Positions 3,006 to 38,322 of a stretch of DNA of 38,322 bases are shown in pieces. The stretch covers positions 1 through 38,322 of IMG/VR virus record IMGVR_UViG_3300044970_001715; one strand, written 5' to 3'. Made by a program: the position numbers and the translations under genes. How positions within the stretch are numbered: the first letter of the stretch is position 1; each line of letters starts with the position of its first letter. The stretch is from a virus. The notes beneath the pieces were generated by a model. That model did no database searches. It had not been told where the DNA came from and worked only from the letters and a program-made list of their open reading frames with translations.

Positions 3006-3647
3006 TCAGCCGTTGACGAACACGTAACGGACGCCGCCGAACACGTCGTTAAATGCGCTCGGCGCGTAGCGGTAGCAATCCGACATGCCATCGAACGAGC
3101 CGAGCTCGAACATGCTCGCGAGCTTTTCGGCTTTCGCGATGTCGGCGTCGGAGGTGCCGGACGGCATGCGGATATGGACGGAGCTCACGCCGGAGCCGCG
3201 GCCGGTGCGGATGCTGGCGGGCTTGAGGCCGTTCGCCTTGAAGTGGCGGCGGATGTTCGCGGCAACGGCCGCGCTGCGCGAGCGAGCGGTTTCGATGCGG
3301 ACGAGATGCGGGAACTCGGCGGCAACGGCGAGGCGGTCGGCGTCGAGCTTCGCGGCGCGAGCGGCGCCCGCGATGAGCTTCGCGCGCTCCTCGGCGCTGA
3401 GGCGGGAGCCGCCGAGGATTACCCAGGGGCGGAGGCCGTGGAACATCGACACCGGCACGGCGCGGAACTCGCGGCCGTCGTCGAGAACGATCGTGAACGA
3501 AGCGCCGGAGGTTTCCGGGGCGGTTACATCGACGACGGCGCCCTCGCCGCAGGGGTTCGCTACGTCGCCGGGGTAGCGGACGCGGGAGCCGACATGGATG
3601 CGGCGGGCGAGGGCGAGGAGGTCGAGGGCGGTCGAGGTCGAGAACAT
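3006..3647 (-). CDS. LPD29-like domain protein, first gene of the leftward block
   Basis: The product is 213 residues. Residues about 17-75 look like a small beta-barrel (VGSRVRYPGDVANPCGEGAVVDV...VLDDGREFRAVP). Residues about 115-213 resemble Large Polyvalent protein-associated Domain 29: an AANIRRHFKANGLKPASIR helix-strand, a GSGVSSVHIRM strand, and the typical FDGMSDCYRY segment near 185-194. LPD domains are found in phage and plasmid early proteins, sometimes linked to DNA transfer or host takeover, with no fixed activity. Its start (ATG 3647, CGGAGC upstream) lies just downstream of the leftward promoter and operator-like repeat, so it is likely expressed first after entry. Confidence 0.75.
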   Translation of the reverse strand: MFSTSTALDLLALARRIHVGSRVRYPGDVANPCGEGAVVDVTAPETSGASFTIVLDDGREFRAVPVSMFHGLRPWVILGGSRLSAEERAKLIAGAARAAKLDADRLAVAAEFPHLVRIETARSRSAAVAANIRRHFKANGLKPASIRTGRGSGVSSVHIRMPSGTSDADIAKAEKLASMFELGSFDGMSDCYRYAPSAFNDVFGGVRYVFVNG

Positions 3648-3765: not shown

Positions 3766-3972
3766 ATGCCGAAGCCCGAAAAGCGAGACAAGTTCCACGC
3801 CCACCTGAAAGCCCGCGGACCGATTACCCGGGAAAACGCCGAGCTCATCCGCATAGCGGACGAAACCGGCTATTCCGCGGATCATCTGTTCAAGATCGCG
3901 ATCGGCGCCCGAGAGCCCTCGACGCGCTGCCGGAAGGCGATCGAGAGAGCCGGCGCGCAGGTTGGCGCATGA
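3766..3972 (+). CDS. Small helix-turn-helix protein, candidate Cro/repressor-type regulator
   Basis: The product is 68 residues from ATG 3766, which follows GGAGG by seven bases. An upstream in-frame ATG at 3664 would run through the promoter region and is unlikely. Residues about 24-55 (ELIRIADETGYSADHLFKIAIGAREPSTRCRKAIERA) have the spacing of an HTH of the XRE/Cro class: helix, turn with GYS, recognition helix, then a GxRxPS loop. It is divergent to the leftward block and next to its operator-like repeat, the classical place for a phage switch regulator. Its small size suits a Cro-like protein. Regulation of the GGTGGC-N5-GCCACC sites by it is an inference. Confidence 0.65.
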   Translation: MPKPEKRDKFHAHLKARGPITRENAELIRIADETGYSADHLFKIAIGAREPSTRCRKAIERAGAQVGA

Positions 3973-7146: not shown

Positions 7147-7160
7147 GTTCCACGTGAAAC
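7147..7160. promoter_or_regulatory. parS-like site 1
   Basis: GTTCCACGTGAAAC matches the conserved chromosomal parS core GTTnCACGTGAAAC recognised by ParB. The site begins at the last G of the AGGAGG ribosome site and contains the GTG start codon (7154) of the next gene. Confidence 0.75.
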
Positions 7161-7654
7161 TGTTTCGAGACATCGGCGCGCGCATTGCCGCCGTCTGGTC
7201 CGCGCTCTGGTCCGGCTACCCGTCCGGCGGCTATGCCGCACCGTCGCCGGGCGAGCCGTTCGTCTATGGAATCGACATGGCCTCGCGCCCGCCCGAGACG
7301 CGGGTCGAGCTTTTCGCTTCCGATGCCGGTGGCCGCGAGCTCCGCGTCGAGCTCGTCGGCCGCTACCTCTCGCCCGGGAACATCGATGCGCTGTTCGCCG
7401 GCTTCGATGCAAGCCGGGTCGGATACCTCGAAACCGGGGTCACACTGTCGGCAGGCGATACGGCCGTTATTTCTGTCGCTCGCGTCATCAGCGTCGAGGA
7501 GGTTCACCGCCTTCGGGACATGGTGAAGCGTTGCGCGCCGAGCCTCGGCGGCGTGGTGGTCATGCACGACGGGATGCGGCTCGACGGAAAGATTGAGGCT
7601 GAGCGAATCGTCGAATCGAAGCTCGGCGGTGCCGCCGAAGCGTCGGAGCCCTGA
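7154..7654 (+). CDS. Hypothetical protein whose start lies inside a parS-like site
   Basis: The product is 166 residues. The GTG start sits in the centre of the parS-like site and AGGAGG is seven bases upstream, so the ribosome site and the ParB-type site are physically merged. Residues about 40-115 are beta-rich (ETRVELFASDAGGRELRVELVGRYL). An HRLRDMVKRCAPSLGGVVVMHDG segment follows, then a charged tail. There is one aromatic/hydrophobic N-terminal helix (about 8-20), not long enough for a clear membrane span. No family recognised. If ParB binds this site, both transcription and translation of this gene could be affected. Confidence 0.6.
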   Translation: MKLFRDIGARIAAVWSALWSGYPSGGYAAPSPGEPFVYGIDMASRPPETRVELFASDAGGRELRVELVGRYLSPGNIDALFAGFDASRVGYLETGVTLSAGDTAVISVARVISVEEVHRLRDMVKRCAPSLGGVVVMHDGMRLDGKIEAERIVESKLGGAAEASEP

Positions 7655-7655
7655 C

Positions 7656-7907
7656 ATGGACGGACTCAGCATCACGGCCGCGGCTTCGTTCCTGGTCGCC
7701 CTGGTCGCGCTCGCGCTAATCATCGGCGCGTGGGGCTTGGCGGGGGCGCTGTTCCTCGCCTGGTTCGATCGCGACGGCGAGGTTCAGGCATGGGCGGAGC
7801 GGGCGCCTCATGGCTCGCTCTTGATCTTGCTCGTCCTCCTCTGGCCGGTCCTGGCGGCGACCGCTCTCATCATCCGTTTCAAGAGGTGGCGTCATGGGCG
7901 GGAGTAA
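7656..7907 (+). CDS. Small membrane protein, two transmembrane helices
   Basis: The product is 83 residues, with ATG 7656 one base after the previous stop. Hydrophobic segments lie at about 6-32 (TAAASFLVALVALALIIGAWGLAGALFLAW) and 49-72 (SLLILLVLLWPVLAATALIIRF), separated by a short charged loop and ended by basic residues. The topology suggests an inner-membrane hairpin. It is far from the lysis genes, so exclusion or membrane signalling is as likely as a holin-type role. No family recognised. Confidence 0.6.
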   Translation: MDGLSITAAASFLVALVALALIIGAWGLAGALFLAWFDRDGEVQAWAERAPHGSLLILLVLLWPVLAATALIIRFKRWRHGRE

Positions 7908-8544
7908 TCTCAGGCTGAACCTCAGCGTCCGGGTCGATCCCGAGGCCGCGCGCGCCTTCCGCTATGTTCCACGTGAAACCGACGCGAGCCGGATCGCCTC
8001 CGAAATCCTCGCCGACCCCGATGTTTTCGACGCGGCGCGCGCGCTGGCGTGGGCGCGGCACCGCTACACCGCAACGGCCGGCTATCTCGAAGTTCAGCGC
8101 GCGCGGCCTGCGGCTCTGCGCTGGGAGCCGCTCCCGAGGATTCATGCGCTGGAACGGCGATGGCGGAAGCGGGTCCGCAAGCTGTCCGCCGAGATGGTCC
8201 GGGTCACGTCTCGCGCAATGTCACGCCGGATCGCGGCGGAGTTCGTCCGTCAGTTCATGGCGGCGGCCGTGGTGTGCGAGGTCAGCCCGGAGGCGCCGGC
8301 TGCGTATGCCGAAACGTATCAGGCCGCCATGACGCCGCCGGATTCGTTCGTCGGCCTTTCCGGCGAGGGCGCCTACCGCGCACGGACCGGGATCGAGGTC
8401 GCCTCGGATCAGTCGCGCGCCGCGACTCACACCTGTTCGGCCACCATCCGCGCGCTTGATCGTTCGTCGGTCTGCCCGCTTCCGCCGGAGGTGAGCGTCT
8501 ACATGGACGGCGATCGGCCGACGCATGTTCCACGTGAAACCTGA
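7894..8544 (+). CDS. Hypothetical protein with two parS-like sites in its coding region
   Basis: The product is 216 residues from ATG 7894 (AGGTGG upstream; 14-base overlap with the previous gene). The parS-like sites at 7966 and 8527 are read in frame as YVPRET and as the terminal HVPRET, so the protein begins and ends its first and last thirds with the same tetrapeptide dictated by the DNA element. The middle (RRWRKRVRKLSAEMVRVTSRAMSRRIAAEFVRQFMAAAVV) is a long basic helix. No known domain is recognised. DNA constraint rather than protein function probably explains the repeated peptide. Confidence 0.6.
   Translation: MGGSNLRLNLSVRVDPEAARAFRYVPRETDASRIASEILADPDVFDAARALAWARHRYTATAGYLEVQRARPAALRWEPLPRIHALERRWRKRVRKLSAEMVRVTSRAMSRRIAAEFVRQFMAAAVVCEVSPEAPAAYAETYQAAMTPPDSFVGLSGEGAYRARTGIEVASDQSRAATHTCSATIRALDRSSVCPLPPEVSVYMDGDRPTHVPRET
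7966..7979. promoter_or_regulatory. parS-like site 2
   Basis: GTTCCACGTGAAAC, identical to site 1, is located inside a coding region 72 bases after its start. It is preceded by T, as in the full 16-base parS consensus. Confidence 0.75.
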
Positions 8545-8713
8545 GCCGCTCAGCCCGTGGGCGGATGAGTTCGGGCGCCTGTCGTGTGAGCTCTGCGACA
8601 GGGTGAGCGAGACAGAGGAATCGGCGGCGCTTGCTTCCGGGTGGGCGGTTACATGGGACGGGGCGATTTGCCCCGGATGCTGCGAAAAACTGAAAGAGGA
8701 GCGTTCCACGTGA
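8525..8713 (+). CDS. Small CxxC-CxxC zinc protein starting at a parS-like site
   Basis: The product is 62 residues if ATG 8525 is used, or 59 from the GTG inside the site (8534). Neither has a strong ribosome site, and the gene overlaps the end of the previous one. C21-x2-C24 and C49-x2-C52 indicate a treble-clef or ribbon-type zinc site around an AVTWDGAIC strand. Such mini zinc proteins are common and uncharacterised in phages. The gene ends as GTGA with the next start. Confidence 0.6.
   Translation: MFHVKPEPLSPWADEFGRLSCELCDRVSETEESAALASGWAVTWDGAICPGCCEKLKEERST
8527..8540. promoter_or_regulatory. parS-like site 3
   Basis: GTTCCACGTGAAAC, preceded by T. It covers both the end of one gene (7894-8544) and the start of the next (8525). 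Confidence 0.75.
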
Positions 8714-8716
8714 AAC
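8703..8716. promoter_or_regulatory. parS-like site 4
   Basis: GTTCCACGTGAAAC, followed by A as in the full consensus. It contains the GTG start codon (8710) of the winged-helix gene and begins two bases after its GAGGAG ribosome site. Confidence 0.75.
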
Positions 8717-9255
8717 AGTCGCAATCGAAAGCAACCGCGGCGCTGCCGGCGATCTTGCTCCGGATGCTGTCCGCCCCGGAATCGGGATGGCTCACGCTCG
8801 ACGAGCTCCGCCGTGTCGGGCAATGCTCCCGCGCGTCGGCATACCGGCACCTGTCCCGATTGGAGGCGGTCGGCTGGCCGATCGAGCGCGAGCATTCCCG
8901 GGAAGCCTTCATCGTCGGCGCGCCGCCGGAGCAACGGTTCCGCATCCCGTACCGGCTGCGCATGCGAGACGGGAGCGACAGCATCGAACCGCTTCGCTCC
9001 ATCTCGCCTCCGTCGCTTCCGCCCGCGCCGGCTGCGCCGATGCCTCGCGACCCGCCGCGGGGCGCTCAGGCGCGCGGAGAGGGGCGTCCGTCGCTGTTGC
9101 GGCCTGCCGTGAAGGCGTGCGCGCATTACTTCCCCAGCGGCGCGCCCTGCGCTTTCTGCGGGGCTCCGAACCCGGCGCCGCCTGGCGTCGGCGACTTCAT
9201 CCGCACGGCCGCCGCCACGCTTGCCGATGGTGAGCCGGCGCCGTGTTCCACGTGA
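8710..9255 (+). CDS. Winged-helix/HTH protein starting inside a parS-like site
   Basis: The product is 181 residues from GTG 8710, with GAGGAG upstream. Residues about 10-60 fit a winged helix: LPAILLRML, LTLDELRRVGQCSRASAYRHLSRLEAVGWPIERE, with QCSRASAYRHLSRL as recognition helix. Residues 80-125 are a proline-rich linker. The C-terminal part has C139, C148 and C151 in CAHYFPSGAPCAFCG. The organisation (N-terminal wHTH, linker, small metal site) could suit a replication-origin binder or a transcription regulator. It is the best DNA-binding candidate among the genes around the parS-like cluster. It is not a ParB: no ParB N-terminal CTPase motif is present. Confidence 0.6.
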   Translation: MKQSQSKATAALPAILLRMLSAPESGWLTLDELRRVGQCSRASAYRHLSRLEAVGWPIEREHSREAFIVGAPPEQRFRIPYRLRMRDGSDSIEPLRSISPPSLPPAPAAPMPRDPPRGAQARGEGRPSLLRPAVKACAHYFPSGAPCAFCGAPNPAPPGVGDFIRTAAATLADGEPAPCST

Positions 9256-9258
9256 AAC
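9245..9258. promoter_or_regulatory. parS-like site 5 (full 16-base consensus)
   Basis: GTTCCACGTGAAAC, flanked by T and A, so that 9244-9259 reads TGTTCCACGTGAAACA, a complete match to the TGTTnCACGTGAAACA consensus. It overlaps the stop codon of the winged-helix gene and lies just before the GGGAGG of the next. Confidence 0.8.
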
Positions 9259-9269
9259 AGGGAGGCGAC

Positions 9270-9605
9270 ATGCTTTCGACTATCGAACTCGCGATCATCC
9301 TTCACGCGCTCGGCTTGGATCAGTACGGCGGCGGCGAGTCCTATCGGCGCCGCTACGTCATCGGTCCCGGCGGCGACCGTTACCCCGACTGCATGTCGCT
9401 CGTCGAGCGCGGCATGATGACCCGGCAAGAGAACCCGCACGTCTGCGGCGGAGTGATCTTTTTCGTCACGGAAGCCGGCGAGCGCGCCGCGCGCGCCCAG
9501 GCGCCGGAGCGTCCGAAACTGACGCGCGGGCAAGAGCGGTACAGGCGCTATCTCCGGCATGATTCATCGCTCAGCTTCGGCCAATGGCTCAGGGTGTACG
9601 GATGA
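9270..9605 (+). CDS. Hypothetical phage protein
   Basis: The product is 111 residues. ATG 9270 follows GGGAGG by six bases and is preferred to the in-frame GTGs at 9243 and 9252 inside the parS-like site. Residues about 3-70 (STIELAIILHALGLDQY... MSLVERGMMTRQENPHVCGGVIFFVTEAGERAAR) resemble small phage proteins with a winged-helix-like layout: helix, variable loop, helix, strand ending in VTEAGERAAR. The C-terminal RYRRYLRHDSSLSFGQWL is a short motif often appended to phage proteins. Function unknown. Confidence 0.65.
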   Translation: MLSTIELAIILHALGLDQYGGGESYRRRYVIGPGGDRYPDCMSLVERGMMTRQENPHVCGGVIFFVTEAGERAARAQAPERPKLTRGQERYRRYLRHDSSLSFGQWLRVYG

Positions 9606-13206: not shown

Positions 13207-14270
13207 TGGGCGAATTCCGCATCTCTCATCGGTTCGAGCGGTTCATTGCCTCGCATACGTTCTATGTCGGGGAGATGGCGATTCAGCCTCCGCAGATCGC
13301 GACCACGGCTCCGGTTGTCGCCGCGGCGGTCGCGGGCGTACCTGGCCCGCCTGGTGCCGATTCGGCGGTTCCCGGCCCGCAGGGTCCGGCAGGTCCGGCA
13401 GGTCCGGCAGGTCCGGCCGGCGCGGCCGGTGCGGATGGTGCTGTCGGCCCACAGGGTCCGCAGGGTGTCGCCGGCCCGCAGGGTCCGGCAGGTCCGGCAG
13501 GTCCGGCCGGCGCGGCCGGTGCGGATGGTGCTGTCGGCCCACAGGGTCCGCAAGGTGTCGCCGGCCCGCAGGGTCCGGCAGGTCCGGCCGGTGCGGATGG
13601 TGCTGTCGGCCCGCAGGGGCCGCAGGGTGTCGCCGGCCCGCAGGGTGTCGCCGGGAAAAGCATCCTGAACGGCGCGGGCGCCCCAGGCGCCGGAGTCGGT
13701 GTCGATGGCGATTTCTACCTCGACACCACGAACACGCGCCTATATGGGCCGAAGGCATCGGGAGCATGGGGCGGGTTCGTTTCGCTTGTCGGCCCGCAGG
13801 GTTCGCAAGGTGTCGCCGGTCCGCAGGGTTCGGACTCATGGACCTATGTCAAGCTCGCGGCGAATCAAGCCTTTTCGACAACAGCGCATGCGGCAGTCAC
13901 AGGGATGACTTTCGCCGTTGCCGCGAACGTGCGTTATGAGGTTGAAGTTTTCGGCGCGTTTCAATCTGCCGCCACTACTACGGGCGTCGCGATTGCGCTA
14001 GACATCCCCTCCGGATCGGTGATCGGCTTCGTCGATCATCCCGTAAGCGCGACCGCTCCGGGCTCTGCAATCCAGCGCGCTGACGCTACCACTACCGGCG
14101 CGACGACTGGCGTCGATACGATCAATGTCAATGTTCCGATTCGCGGTCGGTTTCTTGTCGCGAATGGCGCAACGGCTGGGAGTGTTGGGCTTATGTGTCG
14201 TTCGGAGGTTGCCGCCTCCGCGGTCACATTGCAGGCCGGGTTATTCATGCGATACCGCGTCGTCCCGTGA
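13206..14270 (+). CDS. Collagen-like (Gly-X-Y) phage fibre protein
   Basis: The product is 354 residues. Residues 44-150 are uninterrupted Gly-X-Y triplets, mostly GPQ, GPA, GAA and GVA, expected to form a trimeric collagen-like shaft. A linker ([38 protein letters not shown]) is of a kind often seen in phage fibres, and a second short triplet run lies at 196-209. Residues 210-354 form a beta-rich, threonine/valine/alanine-rich globular head. Such proteins decorate tails or capsids and bind host surfaces. Near-identical DNA blocks with 90- and 72-base periods encode the shaft. A strong terminator lies 47 bases downstream. Confidence 0.8.
13335..13655 (+). repeat. Near-identical DNA repeats encoding the Gly-X-Y shaft
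   Basis: Blocks beginning GCGGATGGTGCTGTCGGCCC start at 13431, 13521 and 13593, giving periods of 90 and 72 bases. The copies are almost identical in nucleotide sequence, including silent positions, so they arose recently by duplication. Length variation between isolates by slippage or recombination is expected. Confidence 0.85.
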
Positions 14271-15359: not shown

Positions 15360-15839
15360 ATGACCAGAGGACGAAAGCCGAGGCCGACCCATCTCAAGGT
15401 GATCGAAGGCAATCCGGGAAAGCGTCCGATCGACGCCGCGGCTGAGCCGATGCCGGAGGGGTTGCTTGTCGATGCTCCGGATTGGTTCGATGATTCGCAG
15501 CTTGAAATCTGGAACTATGCGATTCAGTCGGCGCCGAGCGGCCTGCTGCGGCACATAGACCGCGAGGCGTTGACGATTTGGGTTGTCGCTGCGGACCTTC
15601 ATCGGAAGGCGGCGATCCAACTCCGACGCGGGATGACAAAAAAGTCTGCGGTCAAAGGCATCCCGGAGCAAAGCCCTTACATCGCGATCGTCAACAGGCA
15701 GGCTCAAATAATGCTCAAGGCCGCCGCCGAGCTTGGGTTCACTCCGTCGAGTCGCGCAAGGTTCGGCGCTGCCGGCGGCGGCGGAAGGAATACGAACCCG
15801 TATAACAAATTCGCGGGGATAGGTGAGCGCCAGCATTGA
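15360..15839 (+). CDS. terS: Terminase small subunit, P27 family
   Basis: The product is 159 residues from ATG 15360, which follows GGGGGAGGGGG. It opens with the P27-family signature TRGRKPRPTHLKVIEGNPGKRPI. Then come a helical DNA-binding and oligomerisation region (about 50-125) and a glycine-rich end (FGAAGGGGRNTNPYNKFAG). It binds the packaging start site and recruits the large subunit. The gene overlaps the large-subunit gene by 17 bases, as usual. Confidence 0.9.
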   Translation: MTRGRKPRPTHLKVIEGNPGKRPIDAAAEPMPEGLLVDAPDWFDDSQLEIWNYAIQSAPSGLLRHIDREALTIWVVAADLHRKAAIQLRRGMTKKSAVKGIPEQSPYIAIVNRQAQIMLKAAAELGFTPSSRARFGAAGGGGRNTNPYNKFAGIGERQH

Positions 15840-17526
15840 ACGCGACTACATCGCGATAGCTGTCGATTACGCACGTCGCGCGGTAGCGGACAAGAAAGGG
15901 AAGCGCTTCGGGAAGTGGGCGAGGCTTGCGGCTGCGCGGTTCCTTTCCGACCTAAAGCGATCCGAAAAAAAATCATCGCCGTTCTATTTCGATCGGCGGC
16001 ATGCCTGCGATCCGTGCCGATTCATCGAATGCCTCCCGCATGTCGAGGGAAAATGGGATTCGGAGACGATCGTTCTACACCCCGCGCACGTATTCGCCAC
16101 GGTCAACATCTTCGGTTTTCGCAACCGCGACGGGACGCGAAGGTTCACGACGGCGCTTTTTGCTGTCGCGAGAAAGAATGCTAAATCGACATGGGCGGCC
16201 GGGGTTTTGCTCTACTGCGAACTATGCGAAGGCGAGGTCGGCCCGCAAGTCGTATCGGCTGCGACCACGGGCGCGCAGGCGCGAATTGTTTTCAATATTG
16301 CAAAACGGATGGTCGAGCGCGAGCCTGATATGCGGGAGCATTTTCAATGCGACGCATTCGCCAACGCGATAGCGTGTTACAAAAACGGCGGCACGTTCAA
16401 GCCGATCAATGCTAAGGCGTCAACTCAGGACGGACTTAATCCTAGCGCTGTCGGGCTTGACGAATTGCACGCGCACAAAACGCACGACCTATTGAACGTG
16501 TTGAAGTCTGCGGCCGGCGCAAGATCGAACCCGCTTTTTCTTTTCACCACGACAGAGGGCTATGAGACGCCGGGGCCGTGGCCGGAGCAGCGCGCGTTCG
16601 CAAAGCAGGTGCTAGAGGGCGCGGTAGAAGCCGAGCATTATTTCGCGATCATCTATGCGCTCGACGACGACGACGAAGATTTTTGTGAGTCGGCATGGGA
16701 GAAAGCGAACCCGCTAATTACGGTCAATCGCGTGCTGTCGTCAGAATTGAAAAAGGAATCAATCGAAGCAAAGCAGATGCCCGGCCGCCTCGCCGAGTTT
16801 CGCATCAAGCGGCTCAATCGGCAGAGCTCAGTCGCTAACGGATGGATCAATATCGTTCGATGGAAAAACTGCGGCGGCGCTGTCGATCTTGATTTCCTGA
16901 GGCCGCATCCGTGCTATGCCGCTCTTGACCTCGCAAGCACCCGAGATTTAACGTCGTTCCGTCTGGTGTGGAATGTCGGGGGGGTGCTCTACACGTGGGG
17001 CCGGCGTTGGGTTCCGGAGGATGCCGTGAGGCAGCGAACGGAGCGCGGAACTGTCCCCTATGCCGGATGGGTTGCCTCCGGATTGATTGAGCAAACGCCG
17101 GGGGACGTTACGGATTATGAGGTGATCGAGGCGGCAGTTAAAGGCGAGTTCGATCGGTTCAATGTGCAGCGGATCGCGTATGACAAATGGAATGCGCTTG
17201 ACCTGGTGAATAGGCTCGTCGCCGCCGGCTTGCCGATGGTCGAATTTCGGCAGGGGCCGCAGTCCTATCATCCGGCCATGCAAGGGCTTGAACGCGCATA
17301 CCACGCCGGCCGCCTGGCCCATGCGGGCGACCCGGTTCTCCTCTGGTGTGCATCTAACTTGGTGCCGCGCTATGATGCGAATATGAACTCCGCCCCGGAT
17401 CGGCGGCGATCTACGGACAAAATAGACGACATGGTTTCTTTGCTCATGGCGACCGGGCTTTCGATCAGCGAGCAAGGCGAACCGCAAAACCTCGACGACT
17501 TTCTAGACAATCTGGTGATCGCATGA
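15823..17526 (+). CDS. terL: Terminase large subunit, HK97-like
   Basis: The product is 567 residues. The start GTG 15823 lies within the end of the small-subunit gene. The ATPase has a Walker A of the deviant type (ARKNAKST, 116-123), a Walker B with glutamate (VGLDELH, about 210-216) and the coupling motif FTTTEG near 241. The nuclease domain follows (CYAALDLASTRDLTSF near 364-379, then YDKWN near 452). It converts ATP hydrolysis into DNA translocation and cuts concatemers. Length and order are normal for the Terminase_1 family of cos phages. Four cysteines in the first 72 residues are a minor peculiarity. Confidence 0.93.
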   Translation: MSASIERDYIAIAVDYARRAVADKKGKRFGKWARLAAARFLSDLKRSEKKSSPFYFDRRHACDPCRFIECLPHVEGKWDSETIVLHPAHVFATVNIFGFRNRDGTRRFTTALFAVARKNAKSTWAAGVLLYCELCEGEVGPQVVSAATTGAQARIVFNIAKRMVEREPDMREHFQCDAFANAIACYKNGGTFKPINAKASTQDGLNPSAVGLDELHAHKTHDLLNVLKSAAGARSNPLFLFTTTEGYETPGPWPEQRAFAKQVLEGAVEAEHYFAIIYALDDDDEDFCESAWEKANPLITVNRVLSSELKKESIEAKQMPGRLAEFRIKRLNRQSSVANGWINIVRWKNCGGAVDLDFLRPHPCYAALDLASTRDLTSFRLVWNVGGVLYTWGRRWVPEDAVRQRTERGTVPYAGWVASGLIEQTPGDVTDYEVIEAAVKGEFDRFNVQRIAYDKWNALDLVNRLVAAGLPMVEFRQGPQSYHPAMQGLERAYHAGRLAHAGDPVLLWCASNLVPRYDANMNSAPDRRRSTDKIDDMVSLLMATGLSISEQGEPQNLDDFLDNLVIA

Positions 17527-21018: not shown

Positions 21019-21516
21019 ATGAATTCGCACAAGGTCACGCGCCCGTTTTGGGTGAACGCCGAAATCGGCGTCGCTGTCGAGGGACAAGAGGTTCCGATCG
21101 ACGATCCCATCCGGGCGCGTCAACTCATGTTGTCGGGCTTGATCGAGGATTCGCGCTCGGATGCGGAGAAAGCGGAGGACGCCGCGCGACATGGTCGCGT
21201 CGTCGGCATCGCGCCGCGCACCGTGGCAACGGACCCGATCGCGCCGCCTTCCGACCCGGAGACGGCCGCCGCCGCTGCCGCGCCCTCGGCGCCGGTCGCT
21301 GGCCCGGACGCCGCCCAGGCCGCCGCGGGCGCGCCGGAGACGGCCGCCGCCGCTGCCGCGCCCTCGGCGCCGGTCGCTGGCCCGGACGCCGCCCAGGCCG
21401 CCGCGGGCGCGCCGGAGACGGCCGCCGCCGCTGCCGCGCCCTCGGCGCCGGCCACCGGCCCGGATGCCGCCCAGGCCGCCGCGGGCGCGCCGCGGGCGCG
21501 TAGGGCGGCACGATGA
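21019..21516 (+). CDS. Small head-region protein with Ala/Pro-rich tandem repeat tail
   Basis: The product is 165 residues, behind GGAGAG. Residues 1-45 (KVTRPFWVNAEIGVAVEGQEVPIDDPIRARQLMLSGLIED) resemble short phage proteins found between the capsid and connector genes (DUF7302-like). Residues about 80-158 are three repeats of 26 residues, rich in alanine and proline with one GPDAAQAAAGAPET block each, then a basic RARRAAR end. The repeats should be a flexible or helical tail. A structural or assembly role near the head-tail joint is likely from position. Confidence 0.65.
   Translation: MNSHKVTRPFWVNAEIGVAVEGQEVPIDDPIRARQLMLSGLIEDSRSDAEKAEDAARHGRVVGIAPRTVATDPIAPPSDPETAAAAAAPSAPVAGPDAAQAAAGAPETAAAAAAPSAPVAGPDAAQAAAGAPETAAAAAAPSAPATGPDAAQAAAGAPRARRAAR
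21259..21492 (+). repeat. Three tandem 78-base repeats
   Basis: Units begin at 21259, 21337 and 21415, each starting GAGACGGCCGCC. The first two are identical over 78 bases apart from their upstream edge; the third has several substitutions (GCCACCGGCCCGGATGCC versus GTCGCTGGCCCGGACGCC). The repeat encodes 26 residues in frame, so copy-number change would keep the reading frame. Confidence 0.9.
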
Positions 21517-36571: not shown

Positions 36572-37462
36572 TCATGCTCGATCGCGACGCCTTCCGAAGT
36601 GGTCGCGGAAAGACTCGCCGTCTTTCGACCAGCAGTAAGAGCCCGACGCTTCGGAAGGCAGGCGCCCGAGGCTTTGGTCCCAGGGGCGCCCGAGGAGGAT
36701 CGCGATGAGATGCCGGAGCATCGTCACGGCCTGGTCGCGATCGAACTCGACCAGCTTCCGCGCGAGCTCATCGGATCGGAGTCCCGTCACCTGGAAGCCG
36801 CGCGGAGTGGAAGTCTCGCTCCCGAACGATCCCGCGGGCGGCGGCTCGATCCCTCGCGCTTCGCAGCGCGAGCGGAGCTCATCCTCGACGCTCTGAATCG
36901 ACCGGCGTTGACGAGCCCAGCCGGCCGCGCCGATTTCGATATGCTCGACGACGATCATCTCCGGGAGCTCGCCGCTGTTCGCCGCGCGCGCGAGGTAGGC
37001 GTTCGCCCGTTCCTCGGCGATCGTGATCGCTTCGCGGTAGGCGCCCCATGATCCGCCGTTCGCGAGCGCTTCGGAGACGCGCGCCTCCTCCTCCGGCGAG
37101 ATGTCGTCGAGGTCGCGGACAACGGCGCGGAGCTCGCCGCGGAGAACGGCAGCGAGGCGCTCGAACCCGCGGCGCGACGGCGGCGGGATTCCTGCGGCGC
37201 GCTCGGCGGCAGCGCGGACGCCGGGAGCCTTGAACGATTCCGGCGCGATCGGCTCCGGGGTATTTGATCCGATGAGGGCGCCGAGCCGGCGCCATTCGGA
37301 AAGCTCGCTCGAACCGGCATCGGCGCCGGCTTCCGCGGCCTGGTGGTGATAGTGCAGGATCGCGAACTCGCGGCGCGTGATCGCGACGGAGTCGGCGTCG
37401 CGGCGGAGCCCGCCGTTCTCGAACCGGAGCCGCAGCTTTTCGAGGGTTTCGGAGACGCTCAT
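36572..37462 (-). CDS. Hypothetical protein, leftward block
   Basis: The product is 296 residues. I place the start at ATG 37462, which overlaps the previous stop as ATGA; the longer frame to 37624 would lie in the preceding gene. It is mainly helical and charged: EKLRLRFENGGLRRDADSVAITRREFAILHYHHQAAEAG at the N terminus, a long EEEARVSEALANGGSWGAYREAITIAEERANAYLARAAN helix in the middle, and RSDELARKLVEFDRDQAVTMLRHLIAILLGRPWDQS near the end. No known domain. Largest product of the leftward block and without cysteine-rich or membrane parts. Confidence 0.65.
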   Translation of the reverse strand: MSVSETLEKLRLRFENGGLRRDADSVAITRREFAILHYHHQAAEAGADAGSSELSEWRRLGALIGSNTPEPIAPESFKAPGVRAAAERAAGIPPPSRRGFERLAAVLRGELRAVVRDLDDISPEEEARVSEALANGGSWGAYREAITIAEERANAYLARAANSGELPEMIVVEHIEIGAAGWARQRRSIQSVEDELRSRCEARGIEPPPAGSFGSETSTPRGFQVTGLRSDELARKLVEFDRDQAVTMLRHLIAILLGRPWDQSLGRLPSEASGSYCWSKDGESFRDHFGRRRDRA

Positions 37463-37980
37463 CGCGCACCTCCGGCGAGGAGACGGTCGATTTCCGCGGC
37501 GATGAATCCGCCGGCCTTTTCGAGCTCGCGGATGCGGTCGCCGCGCTTGAACCATTCCACATCGAACGGCCAAAGGCCGGCGATGATGTCGTCGGGAAGC
37601 TCGCCAGCGGGCAGCGCGTAACATGCGGCGGCAAACGCGAGCTCGCCTTCGGAGTGTTCGAGGTCATGCTCGCGGTCGAAACCTTCCTCCTCGATCGCGC
37701 GGAACCGCTCGCGCGCGATGCGGAACAGGCCGGGCGACAGCTTCGCGCGGCTCAGAGCTTCGGCCGGATCGACGGCATAGCCGAACGCTTCGCCGAGGGC
37801 GACGAGCGAGCTCGTCGCGACCTCGTCCGTCTCGAAAGGTTCCGACGTGGCGAGGATGGTTCCGGTCGGCGAGACGAGACGCCATCGGCGCTTGCCTGCG
37901 GAGTCGGAGAAATAGTCGATGCGCCCGCGTCCGTCCGCGCGCGCTGCGCGCCTTCCGGCGCGGGGTGCTTTGTCGTTCAT
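37459..37980 (-). CDS. DUF1508-like domain fused to a conserved phage C-terminal domain
   Basis: The product is 173 residues from ATG 37980 (ATGA overlap with the previous gene). Residues about 20-52 (RIDYFSDSAGKRRWRLVSPTGTILATSEPFE) match the DUF1508/YegP-type strand pattern with its R/W-x-W-R-L and ATSE. Residues about 86-168 (RIARERFRAIEEEGFDREHDLEHSEGELAFAAACYA... LWPFDVEWFKRGDRIRELEKAGGFIAAEIDRL) belong to a very common phage domain of unknown role, usually found as a stand-alone protein. The fusion is less common. It belongs to the leftward block. Confidence 0.75.
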   Translation of the reverse strand: MNDKAPRAGRRAARADGRGRIDYFSDSAGKRRWRLVSPTGTILATSEPFETDEVATSSLVALGEAFGYAVDPAEALSRAKLSPGLFRIARERFRAIEEEGFDREHDLEHSEGELAFAAACYALPAGELPDDIIAGLWPFDVEWFKRGDRIRELEKAGGFIAAEIDRLLAGGAR

Positions 37981-38183
37981 GCCTGGACTCCTTTTGCGAA
38001 TGCGCGGAGGTCGCGCCGTTTGTTTCGTTCGGCCCGAACGTCGCTCGGGGAACACGGGAAATTGAGGTTTCTTTCGCGCCCGTCGCTGGCGCGGATACGC
38101 ACGCGCCAATGCTTGCCGCGGGTAACGCTTACCAGCGTTACGCCTTCGGCTTCGCAGATTCGCGCGATGTCGCGTTCATTCAT
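37977..38183 (-). CDS. Small phage protein, HicA-like size and layout
   Basis: The product is 68 residues from ATG 38183. The order is helix (MNERDIARICEAEG), two strands with GKHWRVRI, a turn, then a NLNFPCSPSDVRAERNKRRDLRAF loop and helix. This is a common small phage protein with a layout like the double-stranded-RNA-binding-like HicA fold, though the catalytic histidine context of a toxin is not clear. An inverted repeat sits in its gene (copy at 40-59). It is also partly present at 1-101. Confidence 0.65.
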   Translation of the reverse strand: MNERDIARICEAEGVTLVSVTRGKHWRVRIRASDGRERNLNFPCSPSDVRAERNKRRDLRAFAKGVQA

Positions 38184-38322
38184 GGCGAGGCTCTCGGAGA
38201 GCCGCGGCGGTGTTGAAGGGTTGCGCGATCAGCCCGCGGCGCCGTCGCCGCCATCCGTGCCGGTGGATTCGGCCGCGGTTTCCGGCACGATGCCGGCGGC
38301 GCCCATGCGGAGCGCGTTGTCG
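38083..38322. repeat. Right copy of the terminal direct repeat
   Basis: Same sequence as 1-241 with one base missing near 38209. See the left copy. It shows that the window closes into a circle or is terminally redundant. Confidence 0.93.
38229..38322 (-). CDS. 3' end of the proline-rich gene at 148-909 (second copy)
   Basis: Last 30 codons plus stop of the gene described at 148-909, present because of the terminal overlap. The frame is the same as in the left copy, since the 1-base indel lies in the intergenic spacer downstream of the stop. Confidence 0.8.
   Translation of the reverse strand, partial: DNALRMGAAGIVPETAAESTGTDGGDGAAG

Follow-up and report, generated by a model that had tools for sequence, protein, structure and literature searches.

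Five exact copies of a chromosomal-type parS site are found in a phage genome in which no par genes are recognised, and the phage most likely borrows the partition protein of its host. The parS site is the DNA tag used by bacteria to pull chromosomes apart. Borrowing of the host ParB is the likely explanation because the phage has five exact parS sites but no par genes. Judging from the sequence, the five sites are very probably genuine parS that would load the chromosomal ParB of the host.

The phage genome and its five parS-like sites

The DNA analysed is the IMG/VR virus record IMGVR_UViG_3300044970_001715, and the window referred to here is its whole length of 38,322 bases (positions 1-38,322). 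The termini of the window repeat directly, positions 1-241 corresponding to 38083-38322 over about 240 bases with a single one-base indel. Because the two ends repeat each other, the window is probably a complete or near-complete phage genome, and the record is probably terminally redundant or circular. The structural set is that of a lambda/HK97-like siphophage and consists of terminase, portal, head protease, capsid, major tail, tape measure and minor tail genes; the portal, protease and capsid are of the HK97 type and the tape measure protein is long. A phi29-like phage (Salasmaviridae) was considered and rejected, since HK97-type genes are present instead of the phi29-type structural gene set. 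Leftward genes are found at both ends of the window, up to about 3.65 kb and from 36.0 kb on, and rightward genes run from 3.77 kb across the parS region and the structural genes. The features located outside the parS region are as follows.

3766-3972, + strand: small HTH-like protein, first rightward gene, at the divergent promoter region; weak candidate for a regulator
10627: peptidase endolysin
11967: spanin-like gene
15823-17526, + strand: terminase large subunit, the query for finding structural relatives

Some minor features of these genes can also be mentioned. The tail-fibre gene contains collagen-like tandem GPQG repeats (13370-13650), and a small gene that follows the capsid gene has a 78-base unit in three tandem copies (21256-21489), which encode a repeat rich in Ala and Pro. 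A short protein encoded on the minus strand at 3006-3647 has a weak match, below the curated cut-off, to LPD30, a large polyvalent protein associated domain.

A scan of the whole window finds GTTCCACGTGAAAC exactly at 7147, 7966, 8527, 8703 and 9245, all on the + strand, and no further exact copy elsewhere in the 38,322 bases. These are five exact matches to the 14-bp core of chromosomal-type parS, GTTNCACGTGNAAC. With two or fewer mismatches allowed, the core is found at these five sites only; shuffled sequences give a mean of 0.71 and none of 100 shuffles reaches five. When up to three mismatches are allowed, there are no sites with one or two mismatches and nine chance-like sites with three, so that the mismatch spectrum is bimodal. 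The five points lie inside 2.1 kb of 38.3 kb (p ~5e-5). Positions 4 and 11 of the parS 14-mer are free to vary, yet they are identical in all five copies. Sequence conservation among the copies ends at the 14-bp core. The flanks differ and are unrelated, which rules out a recent tandem duplication as the origin of the copies and indicates that the conserved unit is the parS core itself.

An earlier sequence-only reading had reported the five copies in one orientation with no other copy in the window, the improbability of even one chance match in 38 kb, and a single copy with the full 16-base consensus. All of this is borne out: the expectation for exact identity from base composition is 0.0014 (about 0.001) matches against the five observed, and the site at 9245 reads TGTTCCACGTGAAACA. 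Its count of 13 fixed positions, however, is incorrect, the parS 14-mer used having 12.

The site-bearing operon and the par genes looked for

The sites and the open reading frames (ORFs) around them are listed in order.

7147-7160, + strand: parS-like site 1, GTTCCACGTGAAAC; contains the start codon GTG (7154) of ORF 7154-7654, directly after an AGGAGG ribosome-binding site
7154-7654, + strand: orphan ORF, 166 aa, beginning inside site 1; no Pfam or PHROGs match and no viral relative
7894-8544, + strand: orphan ORF, 216 aa; contains site 2 and ends at site 3
7966-7979, + strand: parS-like site 2, inside ORF 7894-8544, read in frame as V-P-R-E-T
8525-8713, + strand: small ORF of 62 aa with cysteines (zinc-finger-like), between sites 3 and 4
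8527-8540, + strand: parS-like site 3; extends over part of the ATG (8525) that starts ORF 8525-8713 and over the final codons of ORF 7894-8544
8703-8716, + strand: parS-like site 4; contains the stop codon TGA of ORF 8525-8713 as well as the GTG (8710) at which ORF 8710-9255 starts
8710-9255, + strand: orphan ORF, 181 aa, with a winged helix-turn-helix at the N-terminus; runs from within site 4 to within site 5
9245-9258, + strand: parS-like site 5, with the full TGTTCCACGTGAAACA; holds the TGA of ORF 8710-9255 and lies ahead of ORF 9270-9605
9270-9605, + strand: ORF of phrog_13561 (unknown function, E 1e-16), just after site 5

In the rightward operon, whose genes are tightly packed, four of the five sites coincide in part with a start or stop codon, while 6% of the positions in the region would qualify; the corresponding p-value of ~7e-5 is approximate, the gene calls having been made in this analysis. 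This placement may be plain economy, because a fixed 14-mer costs the least coding sequence at gene boundaries. No sigma-70-like promoter was found between the five sites.

The protein encoded at 8710-9255 is not ParB-like. It has a HTH_11 match with an E-value of 0.005, below the curated cut-off, and its AlphaFold2 model reaches a pLDDT of about 75-80 over part of the winged helix-turn-helix only. In 398 genomes of the order to which the Dyella relative belongs, this protein has four weak partial matches only. Among viral contigs no relatives were found for the proteins of the parS region or for the leftward gene at 37459-37980.

The window was searched in six frames at E<=1 with the profiles of ParB_N (PF02195), ParA-type AAA_31 (PF13614), tyrosine integrase (PF00589) and serine resolvase (PF00239). 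None of the four has a match in the window at this threshold, and the same searches are positive in 11-14 of 14 control genomes. The earlier statements that the phage is without parA and parB and that no integrase is recognised are therefore upheld. A phage-plasmid with its own ParABS was rejected on the lack of a parA or parB gene in the window, and an integrating temperate phage on the lack of both the tyrosine and the serine integrase. Among the window proteins scanned, neither a replication initiator nor a repressor or plasmid maintenance gene could be recognised, so that a plasmid-like state stays putative. The lifestyle of the phage could be strictly lytic.

Relatives, candidate hosts and parS in other phages

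No parS site is found in the more distant structural relatives, neither in 80 terminase loci and 80 minor-tail loci (160 loci, 2.1 Mb) nor in the 50 complete records searched that contain a related terminase. The result for the 160 loci indicates that the array is specific to the non-structural region of this lineage and is not a property of the wider structural family. Two near-identical conspecific fragments, L125 and L126, cover no more of the window than 13.5-21.4 kb, which contains structural genes. L242 and L243, whose placement on the window was not mapped, have no parS site, and the exact flank pattern around site 4, sought to find conspecific copies, returned none. Plasmid-form relatives were rejected, every plasmid terminase being below 60% identity with the best at 36-39%.

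Related terminases are found, among others, in genomes of Dyella, Stenotrophomonas, Pseudomonas, Marinobacter, Haliea and Burkholderiales. Eight of the nine genomes holding terminase relatives have 1-4 parS-family sites each, mostly GTTCCACGTGGAAC. The related terminases and the shared parS family in these genomes suggest that the host may be a gamma- or betaproteobacterium with a compatible ParB.

It is important to compare the array with those of other phages, for which no survey of parS was found in the openly licensed literature. A search of named phages with the extended site ATGTTCCACGTGAAACAT gives 92 records, including duplicates and some possibly mislabelled bacterial contigs, against 0 for the reversed control. 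There are four sites in phi29, four in TBA3, three in PZA and two in B103. The phi29 sites have a single orientation and lie in early and late genes alike. In the close relatives phi29 (NC_011048) and PZA (M11813), the sites at 17244 and 17304 respectively, compared by position without alignment, are similarly placed and have opposite variants, as if changes at the free positions were tolerated and the core retained.

A motif scan of IMG/VR matched at least 120 stretches, and two large phages come from the matches listed. Among these matches, G089 (116.7 kb) has 24 parS sites; the asymmetric 16-mer TGTTCCACGTGAAACA accounts for 23 of them, all in one orientation, and 18 of the 24 are intergenic in a codirectional region, where the background is 14-20%. 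The nearest polynucleotide kinases to its own are from Streptomyces phages, and no parS sites were found in named large Streptomyces and other phages sharing this kinase. G071 (169 kb) has 12 sites among the matches listed, clustered near the ends of the record. It uses all four parS variants and has 36% GC in its first 19.5 kb. No ParB_N match is found in phi29, G089 or G071. Since the IMG/VR phages were picked by the motif, they indicate that ParB-less arrays exist and give no frequency. The window, phi29 and G089 are alike in having one orientation and a single variant, while G071, G090 and PZA differ. A general rule that phages with parS have all their sites in one orientation is rejected, because G071, G090, G087 and PZA are mixed.

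Probable loading of host ParB and the alternative explanations

The exact clustered sites, the bimodal mismatches, the conservation of the core only and the absence of the par and integrase profiles all argue for host ParB, and the arrays of the ParB-less phages (4 sites in phi29 and, among the matches listed, 24 in G089 and 12 in G071) and the search of named phages (92 records against 0) point by analogy in the same direction. Together with the parS sites in the host genomes of relatives and the use of Spo0J by phi29, they support the part of the sequence-only reading which held that the phage loads the host ParB. The consequence that it offered, whether an episome, DNA organisation, titration of ParB or silencing, is not settled by sequence. 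Against the explanation as a whole stand the lack of the sites in the structural relatives, the lack of a recognised gene for a plasmid-like state, the possibly lytic lifestyle, and the single variant and single orientation shared by all five copies, neither of which is needed for symmetric ParB binding.

ParB is a CTP-dependent DNA clamp. The chromosomal ParB of the host would enter at the five sites on the phage early operon, and after loading it would slide and accumulate across about 7-9.3 kb. The ParB-DNA complex could then be handled by the host ParA, possibly also by SMC, and the unintegrated phage genome would be positioned or partitioned while in a carrier state or a plasmid-like one, similar to the way in which phi29 makes use of the host Spo0J. 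Such partition or positioning is the likeliest of the benefits for which the sites may have been selected, with a probability slightly short of even. The whole explanation, from loading on the early operon to partition or positioning, could equally prove right or wrong.

Instead of serving partition, ParB loaded at the sites might spread to repress or time the operon at 7-9.5 kb, which would make them a host-linked silencer. The overlap of four sites with start or stop codons of one rightward operon and the mostly intergenic sites of G089 are consistent with this, and the ParB of P. aeruginosa reduces the expression of genes next to a parS inserted near a promoter (review PMC7022226). However, gene boundaries are also the cheapest place for an exact 14-bp motif, a sigma-70-like promoter was not found between the sites, and the sites of phi29 are not confined to early genes. 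We regard silencing as somewhat unlikely. The sites could also act as a decoy that titrates or redirects the host ParB and so disturbs the segregation of the chromosome or the division of the infected host. A phage genome with five sites has more than the 1-4 found in the genomes with terminase relatives, and replication would multiply the phage sites. Titration does not need placement in one operon, however, and ParB is dispensable for viability in several proteobacteria, so that a lytic phage would gain little. This dispensability is reported for P. aeruginosa (PMC5521831). In favour of a decoy, the parS mimics of SGI1 destabilise the plasmid whose ParB they use (PMC10954446), but this function seems quite unlikely for the window.

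The motif might be merely parS-like and be bound as an operator by a regulator that the phage encodes, such as the winged-helix protein 8710-9255, in the manner of start-associated or stoperator repeats in other phages. The uniform orientation and the gene-boundary position would fit an operator; so would the bracketing of this protein by sites 4 and 5 and the use of five identical copies of one variant, other parS variants being unused. However, the motif agrees with the near-universal bacterial parS at every one of the 12 fixed positions, which would hardly be expected of an unrelated operator, and a ParB-type domain was not found in the window. The four variants of G071 and the opposite variants at the similarly placed site of phi29 and PZA are also as expected for ParB recognition. 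An operator of this kind is thus judged very unlikely. Chance, or an artefact of coding or composition, is scarcely credible: the only point in its favour is the ability of the motif to code for FHVK where genes start, against an expectation far below one match and the lack of sites in 2.1 Mb of structural relatives.

Loading of host ParB, the preferred explanation, can be compared with known systems. The phi29 chromosome is entrapped in spores by the host Spo0J, a ParB protein, according to PMC9437464 (citing Meijer 2005). Like the window, phi29 has several parS of the same sequence class in one orientation and no phage ParB; its dependence on host ParB is described in that source, while host-ParB use is proposed for the window. 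The two differ in that phi29 is a podophage of a spore former with sites spread over early and late genes, whereas the window is a siphophage with its sites clustered in one operon and has no known sporulation link. In the openly licensed literature searched, capture of host ParB by a phage was found for phi29 only, where it is linked with sporulation. SGI1 is, like the window, a mobile element with parS mimics; its parS-like sites bind the ParB of the IncC plasmid ParABS and stabilise SGI1 (PMC10954446). It differs in being an integrative element and not a phage, with a plasmid-specific ParB/parS. Phi29 and SGI1 together suggest that the capture of another replicon's ParB is a workable strategy.

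G089 resembles the window in its array of one orientation, mostly intergenic in G089, and in the lack of ParB_N, but it is a much larger phage, unrelated to the window. The centromere sites in the genomes of P1, N15, the actinophages with parABS and the cyanophage Mic1 serve stable inheritance. These phage-plasmids have a ParABS of their own, with genes for ParA and ParB and element-specific centromeres, while the window has neither gene and carries chromosomal parS. The use of host ParB already has a precedent in phi29, and the window is an interesting new case and not a new kind of system.

It is tentatively proposed that unrelated phages, such as this siphophage and G089, have independently gained host-parS arrays at the boundaries of non-structural genes and rely on the host ParB for partition, positioning or regulation of their unintegrated genomes, as a general lifestyle free of par genes that extends beyond spore formers. 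If this is true, a par-less siphophage with five sites and others with 12-24 would make mimicry of the host centromere a recurrent phage strategy. It would also provide a defined test of ParB action on foreign DNA, be it partition, silencing or decoy.

A separate arrangement is seen in Pseudomonas phage phiPsa374 (KJ409772), where parS, at 390 and 98151, lies in the direct terminal repeat and is thus present at both ends of the genome.
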